Positions 27,831-51,604 of a stretch of DNA of 64,000 nt are shown here, piece by piece. The position numbers and the translations under genes are program-made. The stretch is from Pseudomonadota bacterium (GTDB taxonomy: Bacteria; Pseudomonadota; Alphaproteobacteria; Rhizobiales; Phreatobacteraceae), in contig JAIUOO010000015.1 of the NCBI GenBank assembly GCA_020161695.1, forward strand, positions 1 to 64,000, in the 5' to 3' direction. The notes beneath the pieces are model-generated. The model saw only the letters and a list, made by a program, of their open reading frames with translations. It made no database searches and was not told the origin of the DNA. Numbering within the stretch: the first letter of the stretch is position 1; the number at the start of each line of letters is the position of its first letter.

Positions 27831-27836
27831 GGTCAT

Positions 27837-34604: not shown

Positions 34605-35354
34605 CTAGCGTTGCAGGCCCATCGATGCCGTGAGTCCGCCGTCCATGGCAATGGTCGCGCCGGTCAGATAGCCCGCCAGCGGCGACATCAGATAGGCAAC
34701 CAGCGCGCCGACCTCCTCGGGCCGCGCGAAGCGGCCGGCCGGGATCTGGCTCTCCATCTTGTCGCGGTAGTCGGCATATTTCGCCATCATGTCGGTATCG
34801 ACGAAACCGGGGGCGACGACGTTGACGGCCACGCCGCGCTTGGCGCTCTCGATGGCCAGCGTCCGGCAATAGGCGGCGAGCGCCGCCTTGGACGCGCCGT
34901 AGGCGGCATTGCCCTGATTGGAGCGCTCGGCCGTCACCGAGCCGATGGCGACGATGCGTCCGGTTCGCGCCCGCATCATCGGCCGCACGGCGGCGTTCAC
35001 CAGACGGGTGAAGGCGAAGAAATTCACCTGCATGACGGCTTCGGCCTTGGCCTGATCCATCACCGCGGCCAGCTGGTCATAGGGCTGGCCGGCATTGTGG
35101 ACGAGGCCATAGAGCGCCTCGCCCTGCTCCAGCTCGGCGCAGAAGGCGTCCACGGCCGCCTTGTCGGCGAGGTCGAGCGTCGCGACGGCGACATCCCGGC
35201 CGGGATGGGCGGCCTTCAGTTCGGCGGCGAGCGCCTCGGCAGCCTCGCCGGACGAACGTACCGTGAAGGTGACATCGTGGCCGGCCTCGACCAGAGCGCG
35301 GACAATGGCCGCGCCCATGCCCTTGGCACCGGCGGTGACGAGAACACGCCCCAT
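34605..35354 (-). CDS. fabG: Short-chain dehydrogenase, 3-oxoacyl-ACP reductase-like
   Basis: A 249-residue classical SDR: TAGAKGMGAAIV cofactor motif, HNAGQ, catalytic Ser in AIGSVTAE, YGASK, and late GYLTGATIAMDGG. It reduces 3-ketoacyl chains with NADPH. It overlaps the preceding ketosynthase stop by one base (TGATG), so it belongs to the long-chain acyl operon. It probably supplies the ketoreduction step for elongation to the very long acyl chain of lipid A. Confidence 0.85.
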   Translation of the reverse strand: MGRVLVTAGAKGMGAAIVRALVEAGHDVTFTVRSSGEAAEALAAELKAAHPGRDVAVATLDLADKAAVDAFCAELEQGEALYGLVHNAGQPYDQLAAVMDQAKAEAVMQVNFFAFTRLVNAAVRPMMRARTGRIVAIGSVTAERSNQGNAAYGASKAALAAYCRTLAIESAKRGVAVNVVAPGFVDTDMMAKYADYRDKMESQIPAGRFARPEEVGALVAYLMSPLAGYLTGATIAMDGGLTASMGLQR

Positions 35355-36628: not shown

Positions 36629-36639
36629 CCTGCCCTCCT

Positions 36640-37851
36640 TCAGACCGCCTCGACGAGGCCCATGCCCTCGCCGCGCCAGTGGCCGACCGAGGTGACCACC
36701 GCCTGCTTGACCTTGCGGGTCATCGCCGCTTCCGCTGCCGAACCGCCGACCGGCGGGATGGCCGCGCCGCGCGACACCATCATGGCGCCGAGCGCGATAT
36801 TGGCCGGGAAAGCCGCCTCGACGCTATGGCCGAGCACCGAAGCGGTGGCGCGCGTCGGCACGCGCCGCTGGTCGAGCAGGTCGCGCTCGATGGCGACCGC
36901 ATCGACGACGCCGGTCGCGCCCGAGACGACCACCGTCGCGCCGGGAATGAGGCTCGGCGAAATCTCGTTCCACTGCACCGCCATCGTGTGCTCGGCCTTG
37001 CCGTCCTTGCGGGTGGTCCGATCGGAGGACACCTTGGTCAGCTTGGCGATGGGCTTCGCGCCGCGCTTTTCGGCGTGCTCGCGCGCCTCGATGACGAGGA
37101 AGGCGCCGACCGAGCCCAGAATCGTGCCGCCACCGTCGCTCGGGCGGTCCCAGACCGGAGCCCAGTCCTTGCTCCAGTTCATGTGGCCGAGCTCGAAATG
37201 CAGGATCGTGTCCGGCCGCTCGGCCGAATAGGCGCCGCCGACGAGGAAGATGTCGCCCTGGGACGCATGGCAGCGGGCGAGCGCCACGCGCACCGCGTCG
37301 ACGCCGGCCATTTCCTCGCCCATGAAGGTGCGCGAGGAACCGACGACGCCGTGGACGATGGAAATGTTGCCGGCAAGCAGGTTGGAGAGCTGCGCGAGGA
37401 ACAGCGTCGGCCTGAGGTCGTTCATCAGCCGCTCGTTGAGGAACTTGGCTGGCTCGTTGGAGGCCTCGAGCCCCGACAGGAGCTGCCCGTCCACCGCATA
37501 GTCACGCTCGCCGCCGCCCGCCGCGACGATCATGTGCATGCTCTTCAGGACGTCGTCATTGCCCTTCACGCCGGCATCGTCGAGGGCAAGGCCCGCCGCA
37601 TAGGTGCCGAGGCGCTGCCAGGCTTCCATCTGCCGGCGGTCGCCGCGATCGGGAATCTGCTTCGCCACGTCGATGGCGACGGCCGGATGCACCTGATAGG
37701 GCGCGTAGGTCGCGGTATCGAGCCTCAGCCAGTCATCGCGGCCGCCGTTGAACGCGGCCCAATGTGCGTCCAGCCCCTCGCCGAGCGCGGAGACGAGACC
37801 GATCCCCGTGATCCAGGCTTCCCTCTCGGGACGGGGCTTTTCGTGCGCCAT
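36640..37851 (-). CDS. Ketosynthase-like protein lacking the active-site cysteine (FabF2-XL type)
   Basis: A 403-residue thiolase-fold protein aligned with FabF by ITGIGLVSALGEG, FLVGGAYSAERP, GAFLVIEAREHAEKRG and SVLGHSVEAAF. Where FabF has STACATG this protein reads VVGSSRTFMG, with Ser at the cysteine position. The VNAHGTSTPE motif is also replaced (VSGATGVVDAV). It therefore should not condense acyl chains by itself. By analogy with chain-length-factor subunits of polyketide systems it may pair with the catalytic FabF1 and set chain length. AGGAA precedes the ATG at 37851, favoured over an ORF extension to 37962. Confidence 0.85.
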   Translation of the reverse strand: MAHEKPRPEREAWITGIGLVSALGEGLDAHWAAFNGGRDDWLRLDTATYAPYQVHPAVAIDVAKQIPDRGDRRQMEAWQRLGTYAAGLALDDAGVKGNDDVLKSMHMIVAAGGGERDYAVDGQLLSGLEASNEPAKFLNERLMNDLRPTLFLAQLSNLLAGNISIVHGVVGSSRTFMGEEMAGVDAVRVALARCHASQGDIFLVGGAYSAERPDTILHFELGHMNWSKDWAPVWDRPSDGGGTILGSVGAFLVIEAREHAEKRGAKPIAKLTKVSSDRTTRKDGKAEHTMAVQWNEISPSLIPGATVVVSGATGVVDAVAIERDLLDQRRVPTRATASVLGHSVEAAFPANIALGAMMVSRGAAIPPVGGSAAEAAMTRKVKQAVVTSVGHWRGEGMGLVEAV

Positions 37852-38005
37852 CGGGATGTTCCTGCGAATTCTTAAAGGCGGCGGAAGGCCCGGACATAAC
37901 GACCGGCCGGCGGAAGGGCAAGATCGGCCGGGTAAAGCGTTCTCCCCGCGCCGCCAGCGCACGCTGCCTCAGAGGCTAGCCCGCAATGGTTTGAGATGCC
38001 GCTTC

Positions 38006-38095
38006 CGTCATGCCCGGGCTTGTCCCGGGTATCCACGACTTCCTCTTAGCAGCGTGCTCAAGTCGCGGATGGCCGGGACAAGCCCGGCCATGACG
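38006..38095. repeat. Intergenic palindromic repeat, Hyphomicrobiales type
   Basis: Two arms of about 30 bases face each other: CGTCATGCCCGGGCTTGTCC at 38006 and GGCCGGGACAAGCCCGGCCA ending near 38090, around a short centre. This element (GTCATGCCCGGGCTTGTCCCGGG) is dispersed in many rhizobial-type genomes. It lies within the acpXL operon between fabZ and the FabF2-like gene, where its RNA could form a long hairpin affecting readthrough or mRNA stability. Confidence 0.75.
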
Positions 38096-38129
38096 ACAAG
38101 GGTAGCGCTTTCGCACTTGCGCCGCGGAT

Positions 38130-38603
38130 TCAGGCGGCCGCCAGCTTCTCGAAGGGAAATTCCAGCCGCTCGCCCCATTCGCGGATCATCTGCGCGAATT
38201 TCGGGTCCGGGAAGGTCTTCACGGCGAAGCGGATCTCCGCCTCGGCCACCTTCTTGCCCTCGCGGGTGATGTGGGCCTTGGTGACCGCGTAGCCCGAGCC
38301 GTCGCCGATCAGATGCGCGTGCACCTGGAGCGGGGTCGAGGGCGGCACGAAGTCGCGCATCTTCGCCGAATTGGCCCCGGTCAGGAACGGCATGGCGGTC
38401 AGGCCGTTCAGGCCGAGGATCAGCCAGCCGGAGGTCTGCGCCATCGCCTCGATCATCAGGACGCCCGGCAGCAGCGGGTAACCCGGGAAATGGCCCTCGA
38501 AGACCGGGCTTTCCGCCGGCACGTCGGCGGCGGCCGTCAGGGTCTTCGCCTCCGCGTCGAAGGAAATGACGCGGGTGATCATCTGGAAATATTCGAGCCG
38601 CAT
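38130..38603 (-). CDS. fabZ: 3-hydroxyacyl-ACP dehydratase, FabZ/FabA-like (XL type)
   Basis: A 157-residue hot-dog protein with the FabZ signature EGHFPGYPLLPGVLMIEAMAQ (catalytic His in the first part, acidic residue in MIEAMAQ) and full family length. It dehydrates 3-hydroxyacyl-ACP in elongation. It follows acpXL by about 105 bases and precedes the FabF2-like gene across 278 bases that hold the palindromic repeat. Confidence 0.9.
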   Translation of the reverse strand: MRLEYFQMITRVISFDAEAKTLTAAADVPAESPVFEGHFPGYPLLPGVLMIEAMAQTSGWLILGLNGLTAMPFLTGANSAKMRDFVPPSTPLQVHAHLIGDGSGYAVTKAHITREGKKVAEAEIRFAVKTFPDPKFAQMIREWGERLEFPFEKLAAA

Positions 38604-38708
38604 GGGAGGCGGGTCTCCCGCGCTGGAGATCGGAGAGGGTGGCGGGCCCGCGCTCGGCCGGCCCGCGACAGGGATCAGGCGGCGCGCAAAATCAGGCCGC
38701 GCCTCGAA

Positions 38709-38993
38709 TCAGGCCGCGCCCTTGGCGGCGACCAGCTCGTCGATCTTCGCGCAGAGCGCGCCGAGCACGAAATAGTCCTCGGTCTTCGCCTTGCCCTCGT
38801 TGACCTCCTGCGTCCACTTCTCCAGCGGCAGCTTGATGCCGAACGCCTTGTCGATGGCGAAGGCGATGTCGAGGAAGTCGAGCGAATCGATGCCGAGATC
38901 GTCGATCGCGTGGCTCTCGGGCGTGATCTTCTCCAGCGGGATGTCGCAGGTCTCGGAGATGATCTTCGAGACGGTTTCGAAAGTGGACGACAT
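38709..38993 (-). CDS. acpXL: Acyl carrier protein AcpXL
   Basis: A 94-residue carrier protein with the phosphopantetheine serine in [20 protein letters not shown] and the AcpXL-specific stretch [25 protein letters not shown], which ordinary AcpP lacks. AcpXL carries the very-long-chain hydroxy fatty acid that the LpxXL acyltransferase attaches to lipid A in rhizobia and relatives. It opens the operon acpXL-fabZ-fabF2-fabF1-fabG, and GGAGA lies upstream of the ATG. Confidence 0.95.
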
Positions 38994-39100
38994 GGCTCTG
39001 AAGTCTCCGTGCGGGCGGCGCGACTATATCGCGCAGCGCAAACTCGCGTAGCGCAAAGGGGCACGTTCGCCCGCAAGGGGCGTCCGGCATAGTTGCTGCT

Positions 39101-39129
39101 GCTATAGAGGACGAGGCCTGCCGCTTCAA
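39101..39129 (-). promoter_or_regulatory. Predicted housekeeping promoter for the acpXL operon
   Basis: On the minus strand TTGAAG (39129-39124) and TATAGC (39106-39101) are separated by exactly 17 bases, a good match to alphaproteobacterial housekeeping sigma sites. It would give a leader of roughly 100 bases before the acpXL ATG. The site is seen in sequence; the activity is inferred. Confidence 0.6.
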
Positions 39130-39146
39130 CCCTTCTGGGGCCGGAA

Positions 39147-40037
39147 CTAGAACCGGCGGCGACGGCCCGGAAACACGTCCTCTTCCTCGCGCGGCGACGG
39201 CGGGGCGGTCGAGAACGACAGGATCAGGAACGGGCCGAACTCGAACGAGGCATAGCCGTTGCCGCGCGGCGTCGCCGTGTTGCGGGCATATTCGGCGCGC
39301 AGGCCGACCGCCAGATTGCGCGCCACGACCCGTCCCCAGCTGGCATTGAGGGTGACGATCCGGTCGCGCCTGCCGTCCTCGTAGCTGCGAAAGTCCACGG
39401 AGGCGCCGAGACGGAACCATCCCGGCAGGTCGCCGATCCGCCCGCTCAGCTCGACACCCGGAGAGACCTGCCGGAACCGCAGTTCCGGCAGCGCGGAGAC
39501 CCGCCGGAACAGTTCGACCGACGGGCTGATCCACCAGCGGTCCGCGCCGAGCGAGAAGCCGGCGAAATCGATGCCGACGCTGCCGCCATATTCCTGCGCA
39601 TGGCCGATCAACGGGCCGAAAGTCGCGTAGAAGCCGGTGCCGTTGCTGGCGAAGGCCGTGAACGTGACCGGGCCGGCGCTGCGCGCGATCCCGGCAGTGG
39701 CCCAGACGACGTCGATATTGTCGCCCTGCCCGGCGCCGCGCCCGTAGCGCTCGCTGCGCGCCTGCAGGGCCAGCCCGTAGTCGAAGATCGGCCCGAACGT
39801 GCCGCGCGCCGACAGGCTCGGGATCAGGACCAGCGAATGCACGCTGGTCGACAGCGACGGGAGAACGGCAAGGGCGGCTCGCAATCGCGGCGGCTTCGGC
39901 GGCCATGACGGGTCGCTGTCGACCTCGCGGAAGGGCGGGATGGCGGGCGCGCTGCCCATGGCCCAGACCGGCGCCACCGGCAGCAGCGCCGCGAGGGCGA
40001 TCCCCGCCACTTGCATCCTGCGCACCCGCCGCCGCAA
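39147..40037 (-). CDS. Predicted outer-membrane beta-barrel protein
   Basis: A 296-residue exported protein with the leader RRRVRRMQVAGIALAALL and likely cleavage after VWA. After a Pro-rich stretch come alternating hydrophobic strands with Gly and aromatic residues (FGPIFDYGLALQARS, YGGSVGIDFAGFSLGADRWW, GLRAEYARNT), typical of a small barrel, though the last residues are basic and not a classical barrel end. TTG at 40037 has GGGAG 6 bases upstream; ATG 40016 is the alternative. It precedes acpXL on the same strand, but acpXL has its own promoter. No known function. Confidence 0.65.
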   Translation of the reverse strand: MRRRVRRMQVAGIALAALLPVAPVWAMGSAPAIPPFREVDSDPSWPPKPPRLRAALAVLPSLSTSVHSLVLIPSLSARGTFGPIFDYGLALQARSERYGRGAGQGDNIDVVWATAGIARSAGPVTFTAFASNGTGFYATFGPLIGHAQEYGGSVGIDFAGFSLGADRWWISPSVELFRRVSALPELRFRQVSPGVELSGRIGDLPGWFRLGASVDFRSYEDGRRDRIVTLNASWGRVVARNLAVGLRAEYARNTATPRGNGYASFEFGPFLILSFSTAPPSPREEEDVFPGRRRRF

Positions 40038-40115
40038 GCCGAGCTCCCTGCCCGAACCACCGGGCCGAAGGTTAGGCCCGTGCCGGAAGGGCGGTCAAAC
40101 GCCGGACGCCTTCGG

Positions 40116-40144
40116 TTGACGTTGCCCGCGCCGCGCTTTAGGCA
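40116..40144 (+). promoter_or_regulatory. Possible promoter for the adh-lpxXL operon
   Basis: TTGACG at 40116-40121 and TAGGCA at 40139-40144 are 17 bases apart, about 70 bases before the dehydrogenase start. The -35 box is strong and the -10 box is weak. Confidence 0.4.
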
Positions 40145-40214
40145 GCGCCACTCCATGTCGTACGGGCGCCTGCTGCCCTTGTTCGGGCTTCCGTCGCCCC
40201 GAAAGGACCGTTCC

Positions 40215-41237
40215 ATGCGCGCTCTCCGCCTCCACGGCGACCGTGACCTCCGCATCGAGGACATCGAGGATGCCCCGGCTCCCGGGCCCGGCGAGGTCCG
40301 GATCAGGATCGCGGCCGTCGCGCTGAACCACATCGATGTGTGGGGCTATCGCGGCATGGCCTTCGCCAAGCGCAAGATGCCGCTCGTGGTCGGCGCGGAA
40401 GCCTCGGGCACCATCGAGAGCGTCGGCGCTGGCGTCGGCGCGTTCAAGGCGGGCGACAAGGTCGCCATGTTCGGCGCCAAGACCTGCGGCACCTGCCAGT
40501 TCTGCAAGGCCGGCCAGGACAACCTGTGCACCGACGTGCAGGGCATCATGGGCTTCCACATCGACGGCTTCGCCTGCGAATACGTGACCATGGAGGCGCG
40601 CCATGTCGTCCCGGTCCCGGCCTCGGTCTCGCTGCGCGACGCGGCGACCGCGCCGATCACCTTCTCCACCGTCGAGCACATGCTGATCGACAATTGCCGC
40701 CTTCAGCCCGGCGAGACCGTGTTGGTGCAGGCCGGCGGCTCGGGCATCGGCACCATCGCGATCAAGCTGGCGAAATCGCTCGGCTGCACCGTGATCACCA
40801 CGGTCGGCGATGACGAGAAGGTGGAGAAGGCGCTCGCCATCGGCGCCGACCACGCCATCAACTACCGGACCGAGCGGTTCGAGGGCGTCGTGCGCAAGAT
40901 CACCAGGAAGAAGGGCGTCGACGTCGCCTTCGAGCACACCGGCGCGGACACGTTCAACCAGTCGCTGTTCTGCCTCAGGCGCGGCGGCCGCCTCGCCACC
41001 TGCGGCGCGACCTCGGGTGCGACCATCACCTTCAACCTGATGCAGCTGTTCCAGCAGCAGTACAAGATCTTCGGCTCGTTCGGCGCGCCGATCCGCGCCA
41101 TCGCCGACGGCCTGAAGCGGATCGAGGCGGGCGTCGCCCCGGTCATCGACACCGAACTGCCGCTCGCGCGCTTTTCCGAGGCCCTCGACCGGCTGGAAAG
41201 CCGCAAGGTCTTCGGCAAGATCCTCGTCAACATCTGA
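40215..41237 (+). CDS. Zinc-type alcohol dehydrogenase of the lipid A long-chain module
   Basis: A 340-residue medium-chain dehydrogenase: GEVRIRIAAVALNHID, structural zinc cysteines in CGTCQFCKAGQDNLC, nucleotide motif QAGGSGIGTIAIKLAK, and FGKILVN at the end. AAAGGA precedes the ATG. An equivalent dehydrogenase accompanies acpXL-lpxXL in rhizobia (Adh2-XL), where it is thought to act in acyl-chain elongation or oxidation. Here it heads a two-gene operon divergent from the acpXL side and lies 11 bases before lpxXL. Confidence 0.85.
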   Translation: MRALRLHGDRDLRIEDIEDAPAPGPGEVRIRIAAVALNHIDVWGYRGMAFAKRKMPLVVGAEASGTIESVGAGVGAFKAGDKVAMFGAKTCGTCQFCKAGQDNLCTDVQGIMGFHIDGFACEYVTMEARHVVPVPASVSLRDAATAPITFSTVEHMLIDNCRLQPGETVLVQAGGSGIGTIAIKLAKSLGCTVITTVGDDEKVEKALAIGADHAINYRTERFEGVVRKITRKKGVDVAFEHTGADTFNQSLFCLRRGGRLATCGATSGATITFNLMQLFQQQYKIFGSFGAPIRAIADGLKRIEAGVAPVIDTELPLARFSEALDRLESRKVFGKILVNI

Positions 41238-41248
41238 GGCCCACCGCC

Positions 41249-42163
41249 TTGGTCCGCTGGATCCGCCACAACATCCCCTGGGCGATGCTGCCGCTCGACT
41301 GGCTCGTCGGCATGCTCGTGCTCGGCGCCATGAAGGCGATCCGCTCGCTCGGTCCCGACCGCGCCAGCGACCTCGGCGGCCGCATCCTGCCGGCCATCGC
41401 GCCGCTGATCTCGGCCAACCGCACCGGTTACACCAACCTCAGGGCCGCCTTCCCGGAGAAATCCGAGGAGGAAATCCGCGTGATCCTGAAGGGGTGCTGG
41501 GAGAATCTCGGCCGCACGGCCTTCGAATATGCCTGCATGGACGATCTCTGGGACTACGACCCCGCCCGTCCGAACGAGGGCCGGATCATCACCGAGGACG
41601 TGCCGCTGTTCGAGCACCTGCGCGACGACGGCAAGCCGGCCATCTTCTTCGCCGCCCATCTGGCCAACTGGGAAATGCCGGCGGTCGCCGCCGCGGCCCA
41701 CGGCCTCGACATGACGGCGCTCTACCGCATGCCCAACAATCGCTTCGTGGCGCGCGCCATCCAGCGCATTCGCGGCAAGACCATGGGCAAGATGGTCGCT
41801 TCGGGCGGCGCGGGCGTGCTGCAGCTCGCCCGCGAGCTCGAGAAGTCGGCCCATGTCGGCATGCTGATCGACCAGCATCTCCACCGCGGCGTCGACGTCA
41901 CCTTCTTCGGCCGCCCGGCCAAGGCCAATCCAACGGCCGCGCGCCTCGCCCGCGAGTTCGACTGCCCGGTCCACGGCGCGCGGGTCATCCGCCTGCCCGG
42001 CAACCGGTTCCGGCTGGAGGCGACGGAAGAACTCGCCCTCCCCCGCGACGCCGAAGGCCGCATCGACGTGAAAGCCTCGATGCAGATGATGACCGATGTC
42101 GTCGAGGGCTGGGTGCGCGAGCATCCCGAGCAATGGCTCTGGCTGCACCGGCGCTGGCGCTGA
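41249..42163 (+). CDS. lpxXL: Lipid A very-long-chain acyltransferase
   Basis: A 304-residue LpxL/HtrB-family protein with an N-terminal membrane helix region, the catalytic HLANWE (HX4E), YRMPNN, KTMGKM and LIDQHLHRG. It transfers the AcpXL-bound very long acyl chain to lipid A at the inner membrane. The start appears to be TTG at 41249 with GAGG upstream; the first ATG (41285) would shorten it by 12 residues. Its coupling to the dehydrogenase and proximity to acpXL support LpxXL over ordinary LpxL. Confidence 0.88.
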   Translation: MVRWIRHNIPWAMLPLDWLVGMLVLGAMKAIRSLGPDRASDLGGRILPAIAPLISANRTGYTNLRAAFPEKSEEEIRVILKGCWENLGRTAFEYACMDDLWDYDPARPNEGRIITEDVPLFEHLRDDGKPAIFFAAHLANWEMPAVAAAAHGLDMTALYRMPNNRFVARAIQRIRGKTMGKMVASGGAGVLQLARELEKSAHVGMLIDQHLHRGVDVTFFGRPAKANPTAARLAREFDCPVHGARVIRLPGNRFRLEATEELALPRDAEGRIDVKASMQMMTDVVEGWVREHPEQWLWLHRRWR

Positions 42164-42223
42164 GGGACAGGCGGACGCCGCCAGCGCGCGTGACAGTGCA
42201 TTTCAACGGCAACCGGAGCGACT

Positions 42224-43273
42224 GTGGATACAACCGGGAAAAACACCGCAGATCATCCCGAACTGTCCGCGCTGCGCGCCTTTTCCGCTCGGATCGGGCG
42301 GGACCGAACGCTGATCCAGGGCGCTGGCGGCAACACCTCCCTCAAGCTGTCGGGCATGCTGTTCGTGAAGGCGTCCGGCACATGGCTGAGCGAAGCCGAG
42401 GAGCGCGACCTGTTCATGCCACTGCCGCTCGACCGGCTGTCGGCCGAAATCGAGCGGACGCGGGCGACGGGCGAGGAATTGAGGGCAGAAGCCCTGTCCG
42501 ACGCCCGGGAAGCCCGCCCGTCCATTGAGACGGTCATTCACGGGCTGCTTCCGAAGCGCGTCGTCGTTCATGTCCACTCGGTGAACACCATCGTCCACGC
42601 CGCCCGCGGCGACGGCGAATCCCTCGTCGCTGAAAAGCTTACCGGCCTCGACTGGACATGGATTCCCTATGCACGTCCCGGCCGCCGCCTGGCGCTCCTG
42701 ATCGAGGAAGCGCGGCAGGCCGACATCTACGTCCTCGCCAATCACGGCCTCATCGTGCAGGCGGACAACGTCGAGGCTGCCGACGCACTGCTCGCCGAGG
42801 TCGAGCGGCGGCTTCATGTCGCACCACGCCCGGCAGGCATGCCCCGATGGGACATTCTGGGAACCATTGCGGAGGCGAGCGGCATGCAAGTGCCTGAAGA
42901 CCCGCGCGTCCATGCCGCTTCACTCGACCAGGCGCTGGCCATCGCCGGGGCCGGCGCCCTCTATCCCGACCATGTCGTCTATCTCGGCGCGAGCCCACTC
43001 GTCAGCGCGCCTCCGACCGAGGCTGTGGCGCGCATCGACGACCACCGCCGCCGGACGGGGAAGCTCCCCGACTACCTCGTCGTGCCCGGCGCAGGCGTGC
43101 TTCTCGGCCCCGAGGCCAACCGCTGCGTCGCCCCGATGCTGGATTGCCTGGGGATGGTGCTGTCACGGCTTGACGCGCCCGAGCGAACCGTATTCTTGAG
43201 CACCGGGGACGAGGGCGACCTGATCCACTGGGATCAGGAAAAACATCGCATGAGGTTGGCAGGACCGCGATGA
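42224..43273 (+). CDS. Class II aldolase/adducin-family protein with C-terminal extension
   Basis: A 349-residue protein from a GTG start preceded by GGAG. The aldolase II domain (about 15-200) has IQGAGGNTSLK, VKASGTWLS, zinc ligands in VVHVHSVNT near 115 and in LANHGLIV near 182. A further 140 residues (EDPRVHAASLDQAL, VVPGAGVLL) resemble the second half of sugar-phosphate aldolase-like enzymes whose role is uncertain. Family reactions are reversible aldol cleavage of phosphorylated sugars or epimerisation at pentose phosphates. It opens the unusual operon and overlaps the nucleotidyltransferase gene (ATGA), so it probably makes or shapes the sugar phosphate activated next. Confidence 0.85.
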   Translation: MDTTGKNTADHPELSALRAFSARIGRDRTLIQGAGGNTSLKLSGMLFVKASGTWLSEAEERDLFMPLPLDRLSAEIERTRATGEELRAEALSDAREARPSIETVIHGLLPKRVVVHVHSVNTIVHAARGDGESLVAEKLTGLDWTWIPYARPGRRLALLIEEARQADIYVLANHGLIVQADNVEAADALLAEVERRLHVAPRPAGMPRWDILGTIAEASGMQVPEDPRVHAASLDQALAIAGAGALYPDHVVYLGASPLVSAPPTEAVARIDDHRRRTGKLPDYLVVPGAGVLLGPEANRCVAPMLDCLGMVLSRLDAPERTVFLSTGDEGDLIHWDQEKHRMRLAGPR

Positions 43274-44946
43274 GCGCGATCTCCCCCCAGATCGTCATCC
43301 CGATGTCGGGGTTCGGCGAGCGTTTCCGGCGCGCCGGCTATGACGTGCCGAAGCCCCTTATTCCGGTCGATGGCAAGCCGATCATCCAGCACGTCGTGGA
43401 GATGTTCCCCGGCGCGACGGATATCACCTTCATCTGCAACCGCGATCACCTGGCCGATCCCGGCTACGAGATGCGCGACCTGCTGCTTGGCATCGCGCCG
43501 ACGGCAAAGATCGTCGCGGTCGAGCCGCATCGCCTCGGTCCGGTCCACGCGGTCATGCAGGTGCTTCCCGAGCTCGACCCCGCGCGGCCGGTCATCGTCA
43601 ACTACTGCGATTTCACCTGCTACTGGCACTACGACGACTTTCTCGCCTTCGTGCAGGAGTGCGGGTGCGACGGGGCGATCCCGGCCTATCGCGGCTTCCA
43701 TCCGCACAGCCTCGGCAGCACCTTCTACGCCTACATGAAGCACGAGGGGCTTTGGGCCTCCGACATCCAGGAGAAGCAGCCCTTCACGGACCGGCCGTCC
43801 GAGGAATATGCCTCCAGCGGCACCTACTATTTCCGCTCGGCGCGCCTGCTGGCGGAAGCCTGCGAGACGACCGTCGCGCAGGACCTGTCGATCAACGGCG
43901 AATATTACGTGAGCCTTGCCTACAAGCCGCTGATGCAGAGCGGCCGCAAGATCGCGGTCTACGATCTCCGGCACTTCATGCAATGGGGCACGCCGGAGGA
44001 TCTGAGGGAATATCTCTACTGGTCCGGCGTCTTCCGCAGCCTGACCGATCCCAACCGCCAGCGCGACGCGGCTGCGCGGCCCGATGGCTGCCTCCTCGTT
44101 CCCATGGCCGGCCTTGGCAAGCGCTTCGCCGACGAGGGCTACACCGACCCGAAGCCGCTGATTCCGGTTTCGGGGCAGCCCATGGTCATCCAGGCGGCTC
44201 TCGACGCGCCTCGCGCGCCGCGCCAGCGCTTCATCCTGCGCAGGGATCTGCCCGGGCTCGAACCTGTGACCCGCGCGATCGCCGGCGCCTTCCCCGACGC
44301 GACCTTCGAGGTGCTCGACGCCGTCACCGACGGTCAGGCGCGCACCTGCCTGCTCGGCCTCGACGGTGTCGCTCTCGACGCGCCCCTGACGGTCATCGCC
44401 TGCGACAACGGCATGGTCTTCGACACGAAGGCCCATGCCAGGCTGCTGGACGAGGCGGACACCGACGTCACCGTCTGGGGCGCGCGCGGCCACCCGCTGG
44501 CGCAGCGCAAGCCGCAGATGTTCGGCTGGATCGACGCAGATGCAGATGGCCGCATCAACCGCATCTCGACGAAGGTGCCGCTGGCCGACCCCTCGCGTGA
44601 TCCCATCGTCGTCGGTGCATTCTCCTTCCGCCGCGCGCGCGATTTCGTGCGGGCCGCCGAGCGGATGATCGCGCGCGACGGCAGGGTCAACGGCGAGTTC
44701 TACGTCGATACCGCCATCAACGACGCGCTGGAACTGGGGCTGACCTGCCGGCTGTTCGAAATCGACGCCTTCCTGTGCTGGGGGACGCCGGACGATCTCA
44801 GGACCTTCGAGTACTGGCAGTCCTGCTTCGACAAGTGGTTCGGGCACCCCTATCGGCTGGAGGACGACAGCCGGATTGTGCCCGAAGCCATCGCCGGCAT
44901 CCGCGCCAGAAATGCCTGGCGCCCGGCGCCGAGACCATCGCCATGA
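43270..44946 (+). CDS. Tandem nucleotidyltransferase (two NTP-transferase domains)
   Basis: A 558-residue protein containing two related domains. The first starts PMSGFGERFRRAGYDVPKPL (about 12) with a metal Asp in NYCDFTCYW. The second starts PMAGLGKRFADEGYTDPKPL (about 280) with ACDNGMVFD. Each ends with a WGTPEDL or WGTPDDL stretch, so the unit is duplicated. These enzymes couple a phosphorylated sugar or alcohol to a nucleotide (CTP, UTP or GTP) with release of pyrophosphate. Both halves keep the G-x-G-x-R and KPL residues, suggesting two activities or two substrates. It overlaps the neighbouring genes at both ends by ATGA. Confidence 0.88.
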   Translation: MSAISPQIVIPMSGFGERFRRAGYDVPKPLIPVDGKPIIQHVVEMFPGATDITFICNRDHLADPGYEMRDLLLGIAPTAKIVAVEPHRLGPVHAVMQVLPELDPARPVIVNYCDFTCYWHYDDFLAFVQECGCDGAIPAYRGFHPHSLGSTFYAYMKHEGLWASDIQEKQPFTDRPSEEYASSGTYYFRSARLLAEACETTVAQDLSINGEYYVSLAYKPLMQSGRKIAVYDLRHFMQWGTPEDLREYLYWSGVFRSLTDPNRQRDAAARPDGCLLVPMAGLGKRFADEGYTDPKPLIPVSGQPMVIQAALDAPRAPRQRFILRRDLPGLEPVTRAIAGAFPDATFEVLDAVTDGQARTCLLGLDGVALDAPLTVIACDNGMVFDTKAHARLLDEADTDVTVWGARGHPLAQRKPQMFGWIDADADGRINRISTKVPLADPSRDPIVVGAFSFRRARDFVRAAERMIARDGRVNGEFYVDTAINDALELGLTCRLFEIDAFLCWGTPDDLRTFEYWQSCFDKWFGHPYRLEDDSRIVPEAIAGIRARNAWRPAPRPSP

Positions 44947-45365
44947 GCGGCGAGACTCAAGGCGGCACGCACCGTCAGATCGGCCATTTCCTCGTCATAG
45001 GCGGGCTGACGGTGGTTCTGGACCTCGCGGCCTACAGTATCCTGCTGCGGCTGGGCTTTCCGGTCGGCACGGCCAAGGCCATCGGCTTCATCGCCGGCAC
45101 GGCCTTCGCCTATTTCGCCAACCGGATCGTGACCTTCGAGAATGCCGGGGGCGGCACCGCGACCATGATGCGCTTCGCCGCCGTCTATTCGGTGAATCTG
45201 GTCGTCAATGTCGCCGTGAACTCGCTCATCCTTGCCGTCGCCGGCCGGGCCGATGCGGCGCTCGCCCTCGCCTTTCTCGTCGCAACCGGAACCTCTGCTG
45301 CCTTGAATTTTCTCGGCATGAAGTACTGGGTGTTTTCCTCTCCCGCCCCCGGGATGCGTTCATGA
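44943..45365 (+). CDS. GtrA-like small membrane protein
   Basis: A 140-residue protein with four hydrophobic segments and the GtrA pattern RQIGHFLVIGGLTVVLDLAA, FAYFANRIVTFEN and LNFLGMKYWVF. GtrA proteins are thought to flip polyprenyl-phosphate-linked sugars to the periplasmic side. It is coupled by ATGA to the nucleotidyltransferase before it and the GT2 enzyme after it, the usual GtrA-GtrB pairing. Confidence 0.9.
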   Translation: MSGETQGGTHRQIGHFLVIGGLTVVLDLAAYSILLRLGFPVGTAKAIGFIAGTAFAYFANRIVTFENAGGGTATMMRFAAVYSVNLVVNVAVNSLILAVAGRADAALALAFLVATGTSAALNFLGMKYWVFSSPAPGMRS

Positions 45366-46069
45366 AAGCCCTGTCGCTCGTCATCCCCTGCTACAACGAG
45401 GCGGCCAACCTGCCGCTGCTCGTGGCGCGCTGCGCGGAAGTCTTCCGCGACGAGAGCTGCGAGGTCGTTCTGGTCGACAACGGCTCGACCGACGATTCGC
45501 CTGCCGTGCTGGCGCGGCTGCTGGAGGGACAGTCGATCATCCGGTCGGTGCGGGTCGAGGTCAATCAGGGCTACGGCTTCGGCATTCTCTCCGGCCTGAG
45601 AGCCGCAGGGGGTGAGGTTCTCGCCTGGACCCATGCCGACATGCAGACGGACCCGGCGGATGCGCTGCGCGGGCTCGACATCTTCCGACAGCACCCCGGC
45701 GAACGCCTGTTCGTCAAGGGCCGCCGCTACGGCCGCCCGATCGGCGACGTGGCGTTCACGGCCGGAATGTCGCTGTTCGAAACTGCGCTGTTCATGCGGC
45801 CCATGTGGGACATCAACGCGCAGCCGACCATGTTCCCGCGCGCGCTCTTCGAGAGCTGGACCAACCCGCCGTCCGACTTTTCGCTCGACCTCTTCGCCTA
45901 CGAATCCGCGCTGCGTCAGGGCTATCGGGTTCACCGCTTCCCGGTCGCCTTCGGCAGGCGGGCCCACGGCCATTCGCACTGGAACATCAACTGGAAGGCG
46001 AAGGTGAAATTCGTGAAGAGAACCGTCACCTACAGCCTGGCGCTGCGTTTCGGCTCGCATGCGGTTTGA
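45362..46069 (+). CDS. GT2 glycosyltransferase, polyprenyl-phosphate sugar synthase type
   Basis: A 235-residue GT-A enzyme: SLVIPCYNEAANLPLL, VVLVDNGSTDDSP, NQGYGFGILSG and the metal-binding THADMQTDP. It has no C-terminal membrane helices, unlike some GtrB proteins. By family it loads a sugar (or analogue) from a nucleotide donor onto a polyprenyl phosphate carrier. The sequence keeps a W-rich end (HSHWNINWKAKVKF) typical of this subgroup. Confidence 0.88.
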   Translation: MKALSLVIPCYNEAANLPLLVARCAEVFRDESCEVVLVDNGSTDDSPAVLARLLEGQSIIRSVRVEVNQGYGFGILSGLRAAGGEVLAWTHADMQTDPADALRGLDIFRQHPGERLFVKGRRYGRPIGDVAFTAGMSLFETALFMRPMWDINAQPTMFPRALFESWTNPPSDFSLDLFAYESALRQGYRVHRFPVAFGRRAHGHSHWNINWKAKVKFVKRTVTYSLALRFGSHAV

Positions 46070-46081
46070 ACAGGAGCGACC

Positions 46082-46669
46082 ATGTTCATCGTCAGCCACC
46101 GCCGCAATACCATCGCGCAGTTGAAGGAAACGCCCGAGAACCTGGGCGTGGAAGTCGATATCCGCTGCTCCGGCCCGGACCTGATCATCCACCACGACGC
46201 CTTCGTCGAGGGCGAGAAGTTCGATGACTGGCTGGCCCATTACCGGCATGGCCTGCTGATCCTCAACGTCAAGGAAGAGGGCCTCGAGGATGCGCTGCTC
46301 GAGCGCATGGCCAAGGCCGGCATCACCGACTTCTTCTTCCTGGATCAGTCGTTCCCGTTCCTCGTGCGCACGGCCAATCGCGGCGAGCGCCGATGCGCGG
46401 TGCGCGTGTCGGAGTTCGAGTCCATCGACACGGCCCTGACGCTCGCCGGCCGCATCGACTGGATCTGGGTCGACTGTTTCACGCGCTTCCCTCTGGAGGC
46501 GGCCGACGCGGAACGCCTGCGCGCGGCGGGGTTCAAGCTCTGTCTCGTATCCCCCGAGCTTCAGGGGCGCACCGATCCCGAGGCGGTCGCCGCGATGCGG
46601 CACGAGGTGGCGTCCAAGAAGATCCATATCGATGCGGTCTGCACCAAGCGACCGGACCTGTGGCGCTGA
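46082..46669 (+). CDS. GDPD-like (glycerophosphodiesterase-fold) protein
   Basis: A 195-residue protein with the glycerophosphodiester phosphodiesterase pattern: SHRRNTI near the N-terminus, EVDIRCSGPDLIIHHDAF (Glu/Asp pair and catalytic His), then FFFLDQSFP and a C-terminal RLRAAGFKLCLVSPE. The length is shorter than typical GDPD, but the active-site residues I can see are kept. It could hydrolyse a phosphodiester sugar or polyol intermediate or a by-product. It lies 12 bases after GT2 and is followed almost directly by the fusion gene. Confidence 0.7.
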   Translation: MFIVSHRRNTIAQLKETPENLGVEVDIRCSGPDLIIHHDAFVEGEKFDDWLAHYRHGLLILNVKEEGLEDALLERMAKAGITDFFFLDQSFPFLVRTANRGERRCAVRVSEFESIDTALTLAGRIDWIWVDCFTRFPLEAADAERLRAAGFKLCLVSPELQGRTDPEAVAAMRHEVASKKIHIDAVCTKRPDLWR

Positions 46670-46671
46670 CG

Positions 46672-48762
46672 GTGAGCGCGCTGCTGAAGGAGCGAGCCTT
46701 TCTGTGCGGTCTCCTGATCCGCATCGCGGCCGTGTGCCTGCTGGTGCCGGACGTCCAGCAAATCTGGTTCGTCGACTTCATTCGCAACACCGTCGGTCGC
46801 CTTCCGGATCCCTGGACCATCCATCTGGCCGCCGGCGGCGACCCTCTCGCCTTTCCCTATGGCGTCGCGATGTACGCCGCGCTCGCGCCGCTGACCGCCC
46901 TGGGAGCGATCGTGGATCGCGTGGCATCGACTGGAGCCCTGTTCGCCGGACTCGGCTTCCGGGCGACGCTTCTCCTGGCCGATCTGGCGTTGCTCATCCT
47001 CCTGCGCCGCCAGCTGCGTGAGCGGCAGAACCTGCTGACCTGGCTCTACTGGTTGTCGCCGGCGGTCCTGTTCATCACCTATTGGCACGGCCAGCTCGAC
47101 ATCGTTCCCGTCACGCTCTTCGTCGCGGCTGTCGCCCTCATCGGCGGCGGCAGGCCGGCACTGGCGGGGCTCGTGCTCGGCCTCAGCGTCTCGGCCAAGC
47201 TGAGCATGCTGCTGGTCATCCCCTTCCTGATCATCTTCATCGAGAGGAACAAGCGCTATCGGGCCATCCGGGCCAGATTCCTGACCGCTTTCGCCCTGTC
47301 CATGCTGGTGCCGGTCGGCCTGCAATTCCTGTCCGAGGCGGCCCGCACCATGATCCTCGGCTCACCGCTGATCTGGCGCCTGCTCGATGCCGCCATCCCC
47401 GTCAACCAGCGCGTCGTCGTCTACCTCTTCCCGCTCGCCTACATCCTGCTCCTCGCGATGGCATGGATGTTCGGGCGCATGACGCTGGCGCTGCTACACG
47501 CCTTTCTCGCCTCCGCCTTCCTGACCATCGTCCTGCTGAGCGACGCACCTGTGGGCTGGCACCTGTGGGCCGTGCCGTTCATCGCGCTCTGTGGTGCGCG
47601 CGAAAGCCTGCAAGCGCGCGCCGCGATCGTGTTCTTCTGGACGTTCCTCGTCGCCGCTCATCTGACCATCACGCGAGGACCCCTGTTCCTGCCGCTGGGC
47701 GTCGATCTGGCCCTGCCAGACCGGCTGGTTCAGTCTCTCGGAGGCATCGACCCCTTCGTCTACCACTCGCTCAACCATACCGCGCTGCTCGCGATGGGGA
47801 TCGTGATTTGCTACCGCCTCCTCACCCGCGCTTTGAGGGACACGGACTTCTACCAGCTCTCCCGCCGTCCGCTGGCCCTCGGCATTGCGGGCGACAGCGG
47901 AACGGGCAAGACGACGCTCGGCGAGGCGCTCGTCGGTGTTTTCGGCGCCCGCAGCACGGCGCTCATCTCCGGCGACGATTACCACCATCACGACCGCCGG
48001 GAGCCGCTCTGGAAATATGTCACGCACCTGGATCCGCGGGTGAACCATCTCGGCGCGATGAACGACGATACGTTCTCGCTATTGGCCGGCCACGAGATCT
48101 ATTCGCGCCACTACGACCACGCGTCGGGCCAGTTCACGGAACCGCGCAAGCTGTCGCCGCGAGACATCGTCCTGGTGATCGGCCTGCATGCTCTCCTGCC
48201 CCCCCTCCTCAGGCAGCGCTTCGACCTGAAGATCTTTGTCGAGATGGACGAGGGTCTGCGCCAGCACCTCAAGATCAGGCGCGACACGGTCGAACGCGGG
48301 CGGCGGCGCAAGGATGTCGAGGAATCGATTCAGCGGCGGCTCGCGGACTACGAGCGCTTCCTGCTGCCCCAGCGCGACCATGCCGATGTGGTATTTCGGC
48401 TCCTCCCGGCGGCCGACAACTGGCACGACCACGACATGGCGAGCGACGTGCCAAAGCCTCACCGGCTGCAGGTCGTCCTGCACCAGGCCATCGATCACGA
48501 CCCTCTGGTCCGGGCGCTCCTCATCTATTGCAACACCCGCGCTGACGTTAAACCCGCGGACAAGGACAATCCGACCACCCTGACCATCGACTGCCAGGAT
48601 ATCGGCCCCGACGACACCAGGTTCCTGGCGACGCTCCTGGTGCCGGAGATCGACGAGATCCTCAGCGTCAACCCGGTCTGGCTCGGCGGCTCCGCCGGCC
48701 TGATGCAGCTCATCGTGCTTCTGGAACTCGCGCAGAAGCGCCAGTTCAGGGGCGAGCGATGA
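46672..48762 (+). CDS. Membrane glycosyltransferase-like domain fused to a phosphoribulokinase/uridine-kinase-like domain
   Basis: A 696-residue fusion. Residues 1-390 hold about 10 hydrophobic segments of GT-C type (IRIAAVCLLVPDVQQIWFVD, YWLSPAVLFITYWHGQLDIV). The cytoplasmic part from about 400 has a P-loop GDSGTGKTTL near 405 and an acidic motif SGDDYHHHD. Further on are LDPRVNHLG, an IYSRHYDHASGQF stretch and RRDTVERGRRRKDV, matching phosphoribulokinase and uridine kinase. In place of the usual IEGLH it reads VIGLH, so the conserved acidic residue is missing. Starts at GTG 46672 or 46660. The fusion implies that phosphorylation is tied to a membrane transfer step; substrates are unknown. 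Confidence 0.75.
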   Translation: MSALLKERAFLCGLLIRIAAVCLLVPDVQQIWFVDFIRNTVGRLPDPWTIHLAAGGDPLAFPYGVAMYAALAPLTALGAIVDRVASTGALFAGLGFRATLLLADLALLILLRRQLRERQNLLTWLYWLSPAVLFITYWHGQLDIVPVTLFVAAVALIGGGRPALAGLVLGLSVSAKLSMLLVIPFLIIFIERNKRYRAIRARFLTAFALSMLVPVGLQFLSEAARTMILGSPLIWRLLDAAIPVNQRVVVYLFPLAYILLLAMAWMFGRMTLALLHAFLASAFLTIVLLSDAPVGWHLWAVPFIALCGARESLQARAAIVFFWTFLVAAHLTITRGPLFLPLGVDLALPDRLVQSLGGIDPFVYHSLNHTALLAMGIVICYRLLTRALRDTDFYQLSRRPLALGIAGDSGTGKTTLGEALVGVFGARSTALISGDDYHHHDRREPLWKYVTHLDPRVNHLGAMNDDTFSLLAGHEIYSRHYDHASGQFTEPRKLSPRDIVLVIGLHALLPPLLRQRFDLKIFVEMDEGLRQHLKIRRDTVERGRRRKDVEESIQRRLADYERFLLPQRDHADVVFRLLPAADNWHDHDMASDVPKPHRLQVVLHQAIDHDPLVRALLIYCNTRADVKPADKDNPTTLTIDCQDIGPDDTRFLATLLVPEIDEILSVNPVWLGGSAGLMQLIVLLELAQKRQFRGER

Positions 48763-48793
48763 CGGCAATCCATCCCCCAACCGCGAGCCCGTC

Positions 48794-49528
48794 GTGAAAA
48801 TCAACCGCCCCGAACTGTTCGATCGGCTGCCGGACGCGATCCTGCTCGACCTCGACGACACGCTCTACGACTACGGCGTCGCCCACGACGCGGGCATGTC
48901 AGCGATCGAAAACAAGCTGACCGAGTTCCTGAAACTGTCCCCGCAGCAAATCCGCGCCGCCTACGGCAAGGCGAGGACAGAGGTGAAGGAGCGGCTTGGC
49001 CGAACCGCCAGCGGCCACAGCCGGCTGCTTTACTTCCAGCGGATGATGGAGAGCTTCGGGCTTCGGAACAACGTCCTGCTGTTCCTCGACCTCGAGCACA
49101 GCTACTGGCGCGCATTCCTGGCGGCGAGCACCCTCCACCCCTTCGTCGAGGACGTCCTGTCGGAACTGCGCGCCCGGCGCATAGGCATCGCAATCGTCAC
49201 GGACCTGACGGCCCAGATCCAGTTTCGCAAGATCGCTCATCTCCGGCTTGATCGCTTCATCGATCTTGTCGTGACCTCGGAAGAAGCCGGCGCCGACAAG
49301 GTATCGCACAAACCGTTCGAGCTCGCGGTCGCAAAACTCGATCGCGGCGCGACGCCGAGGCTGTGGGCTATCGGTGACGAGGCTGGCGACATGGCGGCGG
49401 CATCGTTCTCGCCGAACATCGCCACCATCCAGTTCCTCAATGCCCGGTCGCGGGCGCTTGAGAGCCACGCCTCCTTTTCGTCGTTCCGGGAGCTTCTGAA
49501 GGTCATTTCGGCCTATGCAGCGCCATAG
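48794..49528 (+). CDS. HAD-family phosphatase
   Basis: A 244-residue haloacid-dehalogenase-type hydrolase from a GTG start: motif I LLDLDDTLYDYG, motif II IAIVTDLTA, the lysine in DKVSHKPFELAV and motif IV WAIGDEAGDMAA. These enzymes remove phosphate from small sugars or sugar phosphates. It follows the fusion gene by 31 bases on the same strand and likely ends the operon, giving it kinase, nucleotidyltransferase and phosphatase steps together. Confidence 0.82.
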   Translation: MKINRPELFDRLPDAILLDLDDTLYDYGVAHDAGMSAIENKLTEFLKLSPQQIRAAYGKARTEVKERLGRTASGHSRLLYFQRMMESFGLRNNVLLFLDLEHSYWRAFLAASTLHPFVEDVLSELRARRIGIAIVTDLTAQIQFRKIAHLRLDRFIDLVVTSEEAGADKVSHKPFELAVAKLDRGATPRLWAIGDEAGDMAAASFSPNIATIQFLNARSRALESHASFSSFRELLKVISAYAAP

Positions 49529-49715
49529 GACCGATACCCGCCGTCCCAAGGCCCCCGGCTTGCGGAAGCGCCGTCAAAGCTGGTAGGTCGGCCCCGCCAG
49601 TCGGCCGGCTGAGGGGGCGGACGAATGGCAGCGCAGGCCAGTGAATAGCCGGGTTGCGGCCTTGTCAGCCGATGACGGTGATTCTCTCCTGCGACCATCG
49701 CGAGAGAGACATTTC

Positions 49716-51470
49716 ATGTCCGGTGCCGAGCTCCCCTTCAAACTCGTGCAGTATCTGCGTCTTCACGCACCGGCTCTTGCGCCAACCCTGCGGCGGCTAC
49801 TGCTGGTCATCTACGTGGCAGCGCTGGGCATCGTTCTCGCCGCACTCGCGATCGGCCGGGACCTTCCGCTTCATGGCAACATCCACGACATCTTCATCTG
49901 GGTGAACGCCGGACAGTTCATCGAGCAGGGGCTCCGCCCCCATATCGATTTCTCCTCCCCGCTGGGCCCGCTCTACCTTTATGCGAGCTACGCAGCCTGG
50001 CGCCTGACCGACAATATCGGCGACATCCCGCTGATCACCGGCCTCGGCTTCGCCGTGCTGTTCGGCGCGCTCATCTGGGCCTACCGGAGCTACATTCGTA
50101 CCTGGCTTCTGCCTGAGGCTTTCGTTCTGGTGCTCCTGCTCGCCCTGTCAGGGCGTCAGATGGGCGCCCTCGACATCAACCTGACCTGGTACGGCGGCTA
50201 CAATCGCCTCTGCTGGATCGGCGTCGTCGTTCTCGTCCTCGTCGTGCTGGGGAAGAACGCGGCGCTCCTCAGCCCCTCGAAGACCGACAGGATGCGCGTT
50301 GCGATCCTTGCCGGCGGGCTGCTCGGCGTCACGTTCTTCATCAAGGTCAATTTCTTCATCGCCGCCGGCGCCACCTACGGCGGCTGGCTGATCGGCAGCG
50401 GAGCTTTTCGCGACCTGCGCGCCTGCGCTGTCCCCGCGTTGCTCTTCAGCCTTGCCGTCGCCCTTGCGCTACTGCTCGGACTGGACGTCGCCGCATATAT
50501 TCGCGACATCGCCCGCGCCGGCGCGGCTCGCGACAGCGGCGCGGCGAGCAGCATATTTCATCCGGTCGCCTTCGTCCTGGCGATCGTGTTCCTGATCGCC
50601 AATGTCATCACCGACATGCTCATCGGGAATCTGCGCGATCTGCCTGGCCGGATCGTTCTGTATGCCGGTATTTCGGCCGGCATTTTTTTCGGCATAGCCG
50701 GCGACTTCGCCAAACCGCTCGAGCTTTTCCTGATCGTTCTATGCTACCGCTTCATCGACGCATTTCCGCAACTGGTCTCGCGACCTGATCGGGAGCTATT
50801 TTCCGTTCTGCCGCTTTCGGCCGCCGTCATTGCCGGCGCGCTCATCTTCCTCGTCGTCGAATTCTACTCCGTCGTTCTGACGTCGGTGTACCGGCTGGGC
50901 GCCTATTCCGATGCGAAGAGCCAGGCGATCACGTGGTCAGCCCCCGCGCCGTCACGCAAGACGTTGAGACTGCGAGCAGCTCATGAGCCGGACGACAGCG
51001 ACTACACGCTGTTTGCCGAGATCATGGCGAAGACAGCGGAGCGGGATGCCATTCTGAAGGCCGTCTCCGGCGTTCGGCAGGAACTCTTCGAGCTCTCGAA
51101 CAAGGCCTATGCGGCGCAGGTCGATGAAGGACGGGACGTTCTGCAGCGCATGGGCGGCCTCGAGGGCAAAACGGTCCTTCCGCTCGAATTCTCGAACCCC
51201 TACCCGTTCCTGCTTGGCGTGAGGCCTCCGGCCGGAGCGCTGCTGTGGTACCACGACGGCACGACCTTCAACGGCGGCGTCTCCACCTCGCTGGATGAAG
51301 TCTTCGACCGGACGGACATCGTGCTGGTGCCTCACGTTACCGTCGATCCCCAGATGCGCCCGGTGCTCAACGGGATGTTCGAGCGCTACAATCTGAGAAC
51401 ATCGAAATTCTGCGAATTCCACATCGGCCTTTACTGGTCGTTCTATCGGCGCTGCACTTCCCGGGGATGA
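49716..51470 (+). CDS. Multi-pass membrane protein, GT-C-like
   Basis: A 584-residue protein with many hydrophobic helices. An early loop contains HDIFIWVNAGQFIEQGLRPH then DFSSPLGPLYLYAS, a pattern seen in GT-C glycosyltransferases between the first two helices. The last 150 residues are soluble (LFELSNKAYAAQVDEGRD, WYHDGTTFNGG). The ATG at 49716 has GAGAG upstream; the ORF could begin at 49641. It is 187 bases beyond the HAD gene, and that gap shows no promoter I trust. It may add the second periplasmic transfer step of this system. Confidence 0.65.
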   Translation: MSGAELPFKLVQYLRLHAPALAPTLRRLLLVIYVAALGIVLAALAIGRDLPLHGNIHDIFIWVNAGQFIEQGLRPHIDFSSPLGPLYLYASYAAWRLTDNIGDIPLITGLGFAVLFGALIWAYRSYIRTWLLPEAFVLVLLLALSGRQMGALDINLTWYGGYNRLCWIGVVVLVLVVLGKNAALLSPSKTDRMRVAILAGGLLGVTFFIKVNFFIAAGATYGGWLIGSGAFRDLRACAVPALLFSLAVALALLLGLDVAAYIRDIARAGAARDSGAASSIFHPVAFVLAIVFLIANVITDMLIGNLRDLPGRIVLYAGISAGIFFGIAGDFAKPLELFLIVLCYRFIDAFPQLVSRPDRELFSVLPLSAAVIAGALIFLVVEFYSVVLTSVYRLGAYSDAKSQAITWSAPAPSRKTLRLRAAHEPDDSDYTLFAEIMAKTAERDAILKAVSGVRQELFELSNKAYAAQVDEGRDVLQRMGGLEGKTVLPLEFSNPYPFLLGVRPPAGALLWYHDGTTFNGGVSTSLDEVFDRTDIVLVPHVTVDPQMRPVLNGMFERYNLRTSKFCEFHIGLYWSFYRRCTSRG

Positions 51471-51604
51471 GTCCGTCTTGGCCGCACGCGGCACATATCG
51501 TTAAGGTTGACTTCAGTTAGACAGTTTGAGGCAAATGCCGCTCAGATTGCGTCAATAGGTAGGTCGTAACCTCTGGCCATACCCGACCAGAGGGCACGAC
51601 GACC

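Follow-up and report, generated by a model that had tools for sequence, protein, structure and literature searches.

Eight consecutive genes at positions 42224-51470 of the window, i.e. of the whole 64,000-nucleotide stretch of DNA analysed, very probably constitute a Gtr-type glycan-decoration module endowed with a dedicated donor pathway. The best explanation, in which we place moderate confidence, is a horizontally exchanged module that itself encodes the synthesis of an activated ketopentose; the chances that the activated donor is indeed a ketopentose are about evenly balanced. The module is well supported and its sugar moderately so, while the conserved unit, the folds of its products, its modularity, its mobility and its link to a D-rhamnan locus of the O:10 type are established by computation. 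The module represents a widespread and apparently unnamed surface-glycan kit, in which one constant donor pathway is combined with exchangeable transferases, so that variation in antigens and phage receptors can readily arise from it. A kinase of the Calvin cycle is proposed to be reused here to activate a sugar, and the module provides a specific, testable answer to how ketopentose-branched polysaccharides, such as the Yersinia enterocolitica O:10 polymer, are made.

Gene content and insertion site

The eight genes had been described as a glycosylation operon in the first-pass annotation, and the set is confirmed: all of them lie on the + strand at the positions listed below, with 4-bp overlaps at 43270-43273, 44943-44946 and 45362-45365. 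Neither Pfam nor NCBIfam assigns a family to the GDPD-like gene or to GTC2, the last membrane gene. The fusion gene starts with a GTG codon, either at 46660 or at 46672.

42166..51493, no strand: strain-specific block of 9.3 kb, between an lpxXL-like gene and a TadG-like gene
42224..43273, +: ALD, class II aldolase/epimerase-family protein, 349 aa (PF00596, 62.8 bits)
43270..44946, +: NTx2, two nucleotidyltransferase domains in one protein, 558 aa (NTP_transf_3 twice, Pfam)
44943..45365, +: GtrA family protein with 4 TM segments (carrier-lipid flippase / DPMS membrane domain; PF04138, 60.7 bits, cut-off 26.1)
45362..46069, +: GT2, polyprenyl-phosphate glycosyltransferase-like, apparently no membrane anchor, 235 aa (PF00535, Glycos_transf_2, 70.4 bits)
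46082..46669, +: GDPD-fold protein, 195 aa, with an HR..ExD..H motif (AF2 pLDDT 94.1; PDB matches)
46660..48762, +: GT-C-PRK, a GT-C domain (about residues 1-395) fused to a phosphoribulokinase (PRK)-fold domain (about 396-698), 698 aa (AF2, fold match)
48794..49528, +: HAD phosphatase (HAD, Pfam, 52.2 bits; NF053830, 149.9 bits)
49641..51470, +: GTC2, polytopic membrane protein with a C-terminal soluble domain, 609 aa (9 hydrophobic segments)

The block is missing as a single piece from the closest congener, G011, in which the flanks are 92-93% identical and the counterparts of window positions 42165 and 51494 enclose 2.0 kb of different DNA. The 3' end of the insert lies near 51493, immediately beyond GTC2; since GTC2 falls within the inserted block in this comparison, it belongs to the block. 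The GT-C-PRK gene has no match in any of the 11 congeners searched. At the same site G011 carries, on the opposite strand, a different polytopic membrane protein of 543 aa (L149:11284-12915), thus the position between the lpxXL-like and TadG-like genes may be a hotspot for surface-modification genes.

The module begins 61 bp 3' of the lpxXL-like lipid A acyltransferase gene, on the same strand. The region at 35354-42163 contains fabF-like genes, fabZ, an AcpXL-type acyl carrier protein (NF005079, 170.9 bits, cut-off 83), an alcohol dehydrogenase and the lipid A acyltransferase (NF005120, 423 bits, cut-off 273), and looks like a rhizobial very-long-chain lipid A cluster. Elsewhere in the window, at 26001-28000, the G+C content dips to 0.584, compared with 0.62-0.73 in the surroundings.

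Conservation, mobility and modularity

A search for the same gene order in other genomes had been suggested as a check, and the unit is found to be conserved both in 80 loci and in a survey of 337 genomes; co-occurrence, far from being rare, is very strong in both. The loci are those of the best 80 NTx2 homologues in GTDB genomes, whose hosts belong to Pseudomonadota, Acidobacteriota, Nitrospirota and other phyla, and about 70 of them retain the same partners. Counted as fetched, with some loci cut by contig ends, NTx2 is present in 80, the aldolase in 74, the GDPD-like protein and GT-C-PRK in 73 each, HAD in 70, GT2 in 69 and GtrA in 48. The 337 genomes were taken from the class; five of them, the same for both genes, contain NTx2 and the GDPD-like gene, and GT-C-PRK is found in four of those five and in no other. 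In two genomes where the locus is reduced to ALD and NTx2, GT2 and GT-C-PRK are located at other sites of the same genome. Whole-genome co-occurrence and the 80 loci together rule out a chance neighbourhood.

The distribution of the module is sporadic and strain-specific; hosts include Pseudomonas, Yersinia, Erwinia, Lysobacter and Nitrosomonas, as well as E. coli plasmids and phage contigs. In the NTx2 gene tree Pseudomonas and Polynucleobacter are dispersed over several branches, and the module is present on two E. coli plasmids, lying between IS26 copies on one of them; both the scattered tree and the plasmid copies indicate lateral transfer. A distant DNA search of 5,426 genomes revealed these two plasmids and no E. 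coli chromosome as carrier, so that no link could be drawn to the E. coli O95 antigen, which contains D-xylulose. A literature search covering few subscription journals found no paper on this gene set and no relevant one on a ketopentose donor pathway; likewise, no description of a biosynthetic route to L-xylulose was found in the literature searched.

Some variants of the locus deserve mention. A gene for a TylF-like or other SAM methyltransferase occurs in about 20 loci, mostly between NTx2 and GT2 (e.g. L065:10557-11453 and L055:11074-11898), and probably serves O-methylation of the added sugar. A Rhizobium plasmid locus (L102:8609-12186) contains diverged double nucleotidyltransferase (27%) and GDPD-like (28%) genes with an adjacent HAD gene, possibly a diverged cousin pathway. 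In two genomes of one genus NTx2 reads with one internal TAA (G122:C7:8705-10267 and G253:C14:26762-28333), where it is perhaps split into two separate genes.

The transfer genes show the set to be modular. For the core proteins homology extends to 100% of locus pairs; for the adjacent large membrane protein it is seen in 6%, and 60 loci yield 25 mutually unrelated clusters of it. Of the block edges, 35% have such a protein no more than 500 bp away, versus 3.9% of control points. As in Gtr systems, a conserved donor and carrier kit is paired with a transferase that can be swapped. The Gtr scheme invoked in the first-pass annotation is accordingly supported by GtrA, by GT2 and by this exchangeable membrane protein.

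Donor synthesis, in turn, is separable from transfer, as indicated by genomes and phage contigs that have donor genes and lack transfer genes. Five Roseomonas/Pseudoroseomonas genomes and Polynucleobacter meluiroseus have no close GT2 genome-wide and retain ALD, NTx2, the GDPD-like gene, GT-C-PRK and HAD; a requirement of GT-C-PRK for GT2 is therefore unsupported. In four phage contigs (L128-L131) GtrA, GT2 and GT-C are absent, and a PRK-domain protein devoid of GT-C, a class II aldolase of 225 aa and NTx2 (39-40% identical, again with a double nucleotidyltransferase) occur within a few kilobases. Two of these contigs, L128 and L131, have an ORF of 152-158 aa with a GDPD-like motif immediately 5' of NTx2, and in L131 these are joined by a HAD-like ORF of 98 aa and a gene for a TylF methyltransferase; the GDPD and small HAD calls are motif or sub-threshold matches. 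The loci that keep the donor genes in the absence of GtrA and GT2, and the phage contigs lacking GT-C, support the proposal of a dedicated donor.

More generally, marine phage contigs and cyanophages (L128-L131, L103, L104) carry NTx2 and the class II aldolase amid many glycosyltransferases. Xylulofuranose is among the components of chlorovirus glycans; a scan of viral contigs gave no recognisable chlorovirus match.

Enzymes and proposed pathway

The family calls made at first sight hold for all proteins but the kinase, which proves to be a complete phosphoribulokinase fold placed behind a GT-C domain. The AF2 model of the fusion (pLDDT 91.5) bears out the GT-C call, showing a true GT-C fold in the N-terminal domain, with Z 24-26 to PIG-M (GPI mannosyltransferase I), ALG3 and ALG6; the acidic residue of its first loop is D48 in 61 homologues and N in 7. 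The C-terminal half matches PRK/uridine kinase with 106.2 bits (Pfam) and covers the entire phosphoribulokinase fold (Z 27.7, 285 aligned), with a GDSGxGK P-loop. Of 76 homologues, 72 have the kinase domain fused to GT-C, while the matches to the remaining 4 are partial. The Walker-B Glu of the IEGLH motif is missing throughout: it is replaced by S, T, I, A or G in all 73 homologues scored and by C in the phage copies, so that substrate or mechanism may differ from those of PRK. This family has its own signature, which rules out a housekeeping uridine kinase or a Calvin PRK.

The HAD phosphatase has as nearest family the haloarchaeal ribulose-1,5-bisphosphate (RuBP) 5-phosphatase (NF053830, 149.9 bits, E 9e-44); the score is under the curated cut-off of 330, yet this is the best family by 90 bits, the next one reaching 60 bits. 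Thus the idea that each gene might be closest to an unrelated housekeeping homologue is contradicted, several of them representing special subfamilies, as seen in the kinase devoid of the IEGLH Glu and in this phosphatase.

ALD most resembles RhaD-type aldolase/SDR fusions, in their aldolase portion (partial PRK08324/TIGR02632 matches); residues PSIE, HxH and NHG are kept across 77 homologues, with the catalytic Glu and His present, and from its sequence the protein could be an aldolase, an epimerase or a decarboxylase. NTx2 retains the nucleotidyltransferase signature residues in both halves. As for the GDPD-like protein, the assignment stands by fold and fails by sequence profile: the AF2 model (pLDDT 94.1) is a GDPD-type TIM barrel and all 15 of its best PDB matches are GDPDs (E 6e-8), while Pfam, NCBIfam and PDB profiles give no match.

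GT2 is likewise only in part what had been proposed, i.e. a GtrB-like protein: it belongs to the GT2 family (PF00535) but is short and seems to have no C-terminal membrane anchors. Hydrophobic segments are absent in 62 of 72 homologues and number one in the remaining 10, with a median pairwise identity of 65% in this set. Weak homologues of GTC2 adjoin two other modules (L084 and L096), and a profile comparison found no homology between GTC2 and the fused GT-C domain; GTC2 is GT-C-like by general anatomy alone and is predicted to be the acceptor-specific transferase, in the role of GtrC.

From these enzymes we infer a route, of which every chemical step, like the sugar and the acceptor in the window strain, is to be read as a proposal. 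The PRK domain would convert D-ribulose-5-phosphate to RuBP, HAD would strip the 5-phosphate to leave D-ribulose-1-phosphate, and the class II aldolase would invert C-4 via a retro-aldol/aldol sequence, the mirror image of the AraD reaction, yielding L-xylulose-1-phosphate. D-ribulose and L-xylulose differ solely at C-4, and inversion of this carbon by retro-aldol/aldol chemistry is known from members of the class II aldolase family, AraD among them; for this reason the conversion of D-ribulose-5-phosphate to L-xylulose-1-phosphate is conceivable with PRK, HAD and aldolase alone. Both kinase and phosphatase point to ribulose bisphosphate, and a RuBP phosphatase and a class II aldolase are proven in haloarchaea, where RuBP is converted to ribulose-1-phosphate and then to DHAP and glycolaldehyde (PMC9700705).

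NTx2 and the GDPD-fold enzyme would then activate the pentulose, in its pentulofuranose form, as a nucleotide donor. To our knowledge, no enzyme accounts for the passage from a 1-phosphate to a donor activated at the anomeric carbon (C-2). A speculative and rather improbable solution is that domain A of NTx2 forms an NDP-1-pentulose, that the GDPD-fold enzyme enables the anomeric O-2 to displace the nucleotide, giving a 1,2-cyclic phosphate and then pentulose-2-phosphate, and that domain B produces the anomeric donor; this would account for both the doubled nucleotidyltransferase and the obligatory GDPD. Finally, GT2 together with GtrA would move the sugar to a carrier lipid, which would then be flipped, and the GT-C enzymes would attach the sugar to the surface polymer in the periplasm; choice of the acceptor would fall to the variable membrane protein encoded last. 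Even in loci lacking GT2 the kinase keeps its GT-C domain, for which the proposal gives no reason.

Candidate sugar, alternatives and known systems

The O:10 polymer of Y. enterocolitica is a D-rhamnan bearing L-xylulofuranose (L-Xulf) branches; its O-antigen locus is without a gene for the xylulose donor, and L-Xul transfer was tentatively given by the authors to glycosyltransferases of that locus (PMC11380512). The module is present in one of 25 Yersinia species genomes, that of Y. proxima IP37424. The O-antigen locus of this strain (manC manB wzm wzt MT GT gmd rmd GT GT galF galU) has the O:10 order, and is matched exactly by the cores of all six wzm primers published for O:10, whereas in three sister D-rhamnan loci, from genomes devoid of the module, each primer has 1-9 mismatches. 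The module of Crenobacter oryzisoli lies 3.3 kb from an O-antigen locus of the same order, with gmd 92%, rmd 64% and the last two glycosyltransferases 54-61% identical. The terminal GT-C of Crenobacter is 53% identical to the Y. proxima counterpart and unrelated to that of the E. coli plasmid, while its other module proteins, the aldolase excepted, are 79-89% identical to those of the plasmid. Thus, the transferase tracks the polymer backbone and not the donor genes. On the basis of one Yersinia genome and one Crenobacter locus, L-xylulose is a tentative candidate for the sugar added by these copies of the module, with somewhat less than an even chance of being correct.

The order kinase, HAD and nucleotidyltransferase is known from heptose-1-phosphate activation; the kinase of the module departs from PRK at a catalytic residue, and the annotation of one cyanophage NTx2 locus includes phosphoheptose isomerase and heptose-kinase-like genes. 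The module could then decorate glycans with an aldopentose, a heptose, or a branched or polyol-phosphate residue, obtained through kinase, bisphosphate, phosphatase and nucleotidyltransferase according to the GmhB/HddA/HddC logic. We consider such a non-ketopentose sugar unlikely, though a serious contender, as kinase and phosphatase are both nearest to ribulose-bisphosphate enzymes, the aldolase suits a ketose-1-phosphate and the matching Yersinia polymer bears a ketopentose.

The acceptor may also be other than an O-polysaccharide, the lipid-linked sugar being destined to protein or teichoic-like glycosylation, or to lipid A. The neighbouring lpxXL-like gene would fit this view, as would the nearest GT-C folds (PIG-M/ALG3/ArnT), which serve varied acceptors; however, O-antigen or Wzx-type loci adjoin the module in Crenobacter, Azospirillum and Polynucleobacter, and the acceptor protein is highly variable, which makes such targets improbable. 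A catabolic or salvage route from RuBP through ribulose-1-phosphate to DHAP and glycolaldehyde, adjoining glycosylation genes by accident, is very improbable even though exactly such a route is proven in haloarchaea (PMC9700705), because no member is as constant as the nucleotidyltransferase, nearly every copy is accompanied by GtrA/GT2 and a membrane transferase, at least 72 of 76 homologues have the kinase fused to GT-C and the distribution is patchy among strains.

The preferred reading, a Gtr-type module with its own ketopentose donor, can be compared with several known systems. It resembles GtrABC in having a GtrA flippase-like protein, a GT2 predicted to make a polyprenyl-phosphate sugar and a swappable, polytopic, acceptor-specific transferase, and also in its mobility, being a strain-specific insert that is IS26-flanked on an E. 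coli plasmid and found in IMG/VR contigs. It differs in bringing five dedicated donor enzymes and an extra GT-C fused to a kinase, and in its short GT2 (235 aa), which, unlike GtrB, seems to lack C-terminal membrane anchors. The retention of dedicated donor genes in the unit argues against housekeeping UDP-glucose as the donor, in agreement with the first-pass annotation.

The kinase shares with phosphoribulokinases of the cyanobacterial/archaeal type the complete fold and the P-loop, DxYH, R, YxH, RD..RG and PQ motifs, and differs in the fusion to GT-C and in the replacement of the IEGLH Glu in all homologues. As in ADP/GDP-heptose activation, a bisphosphate intermediate would be followed by a HAD phosphatase (GmhB in the heptose route) and a nucleotidyltransferase; the module, however, uses a PRK-family instead of a ribokinase-family kinase, and aldolase and GDPD-fold enzymes are added. 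The haloarchaeal non-carboxylating pentose bisphosphate pathway (PMC9700705) likewise combines a HAD related to RuBP 5-phosphatase with a class II aldolase acting on ketose-1-phosphates; in the module, conversely, RuBP is predicted to come from the PRK-like kinase and not from an R15P isomerase, and the enzymes are coupled to a nucleotidyltransferase and glycosylation genes. Finally, the likeness to the Y. enterocolitica O:10 system, a comparison at the level of the O-antigen locus, lies in the identical gene order and the exact primer matches of the module-bearing Y. proxima strain.
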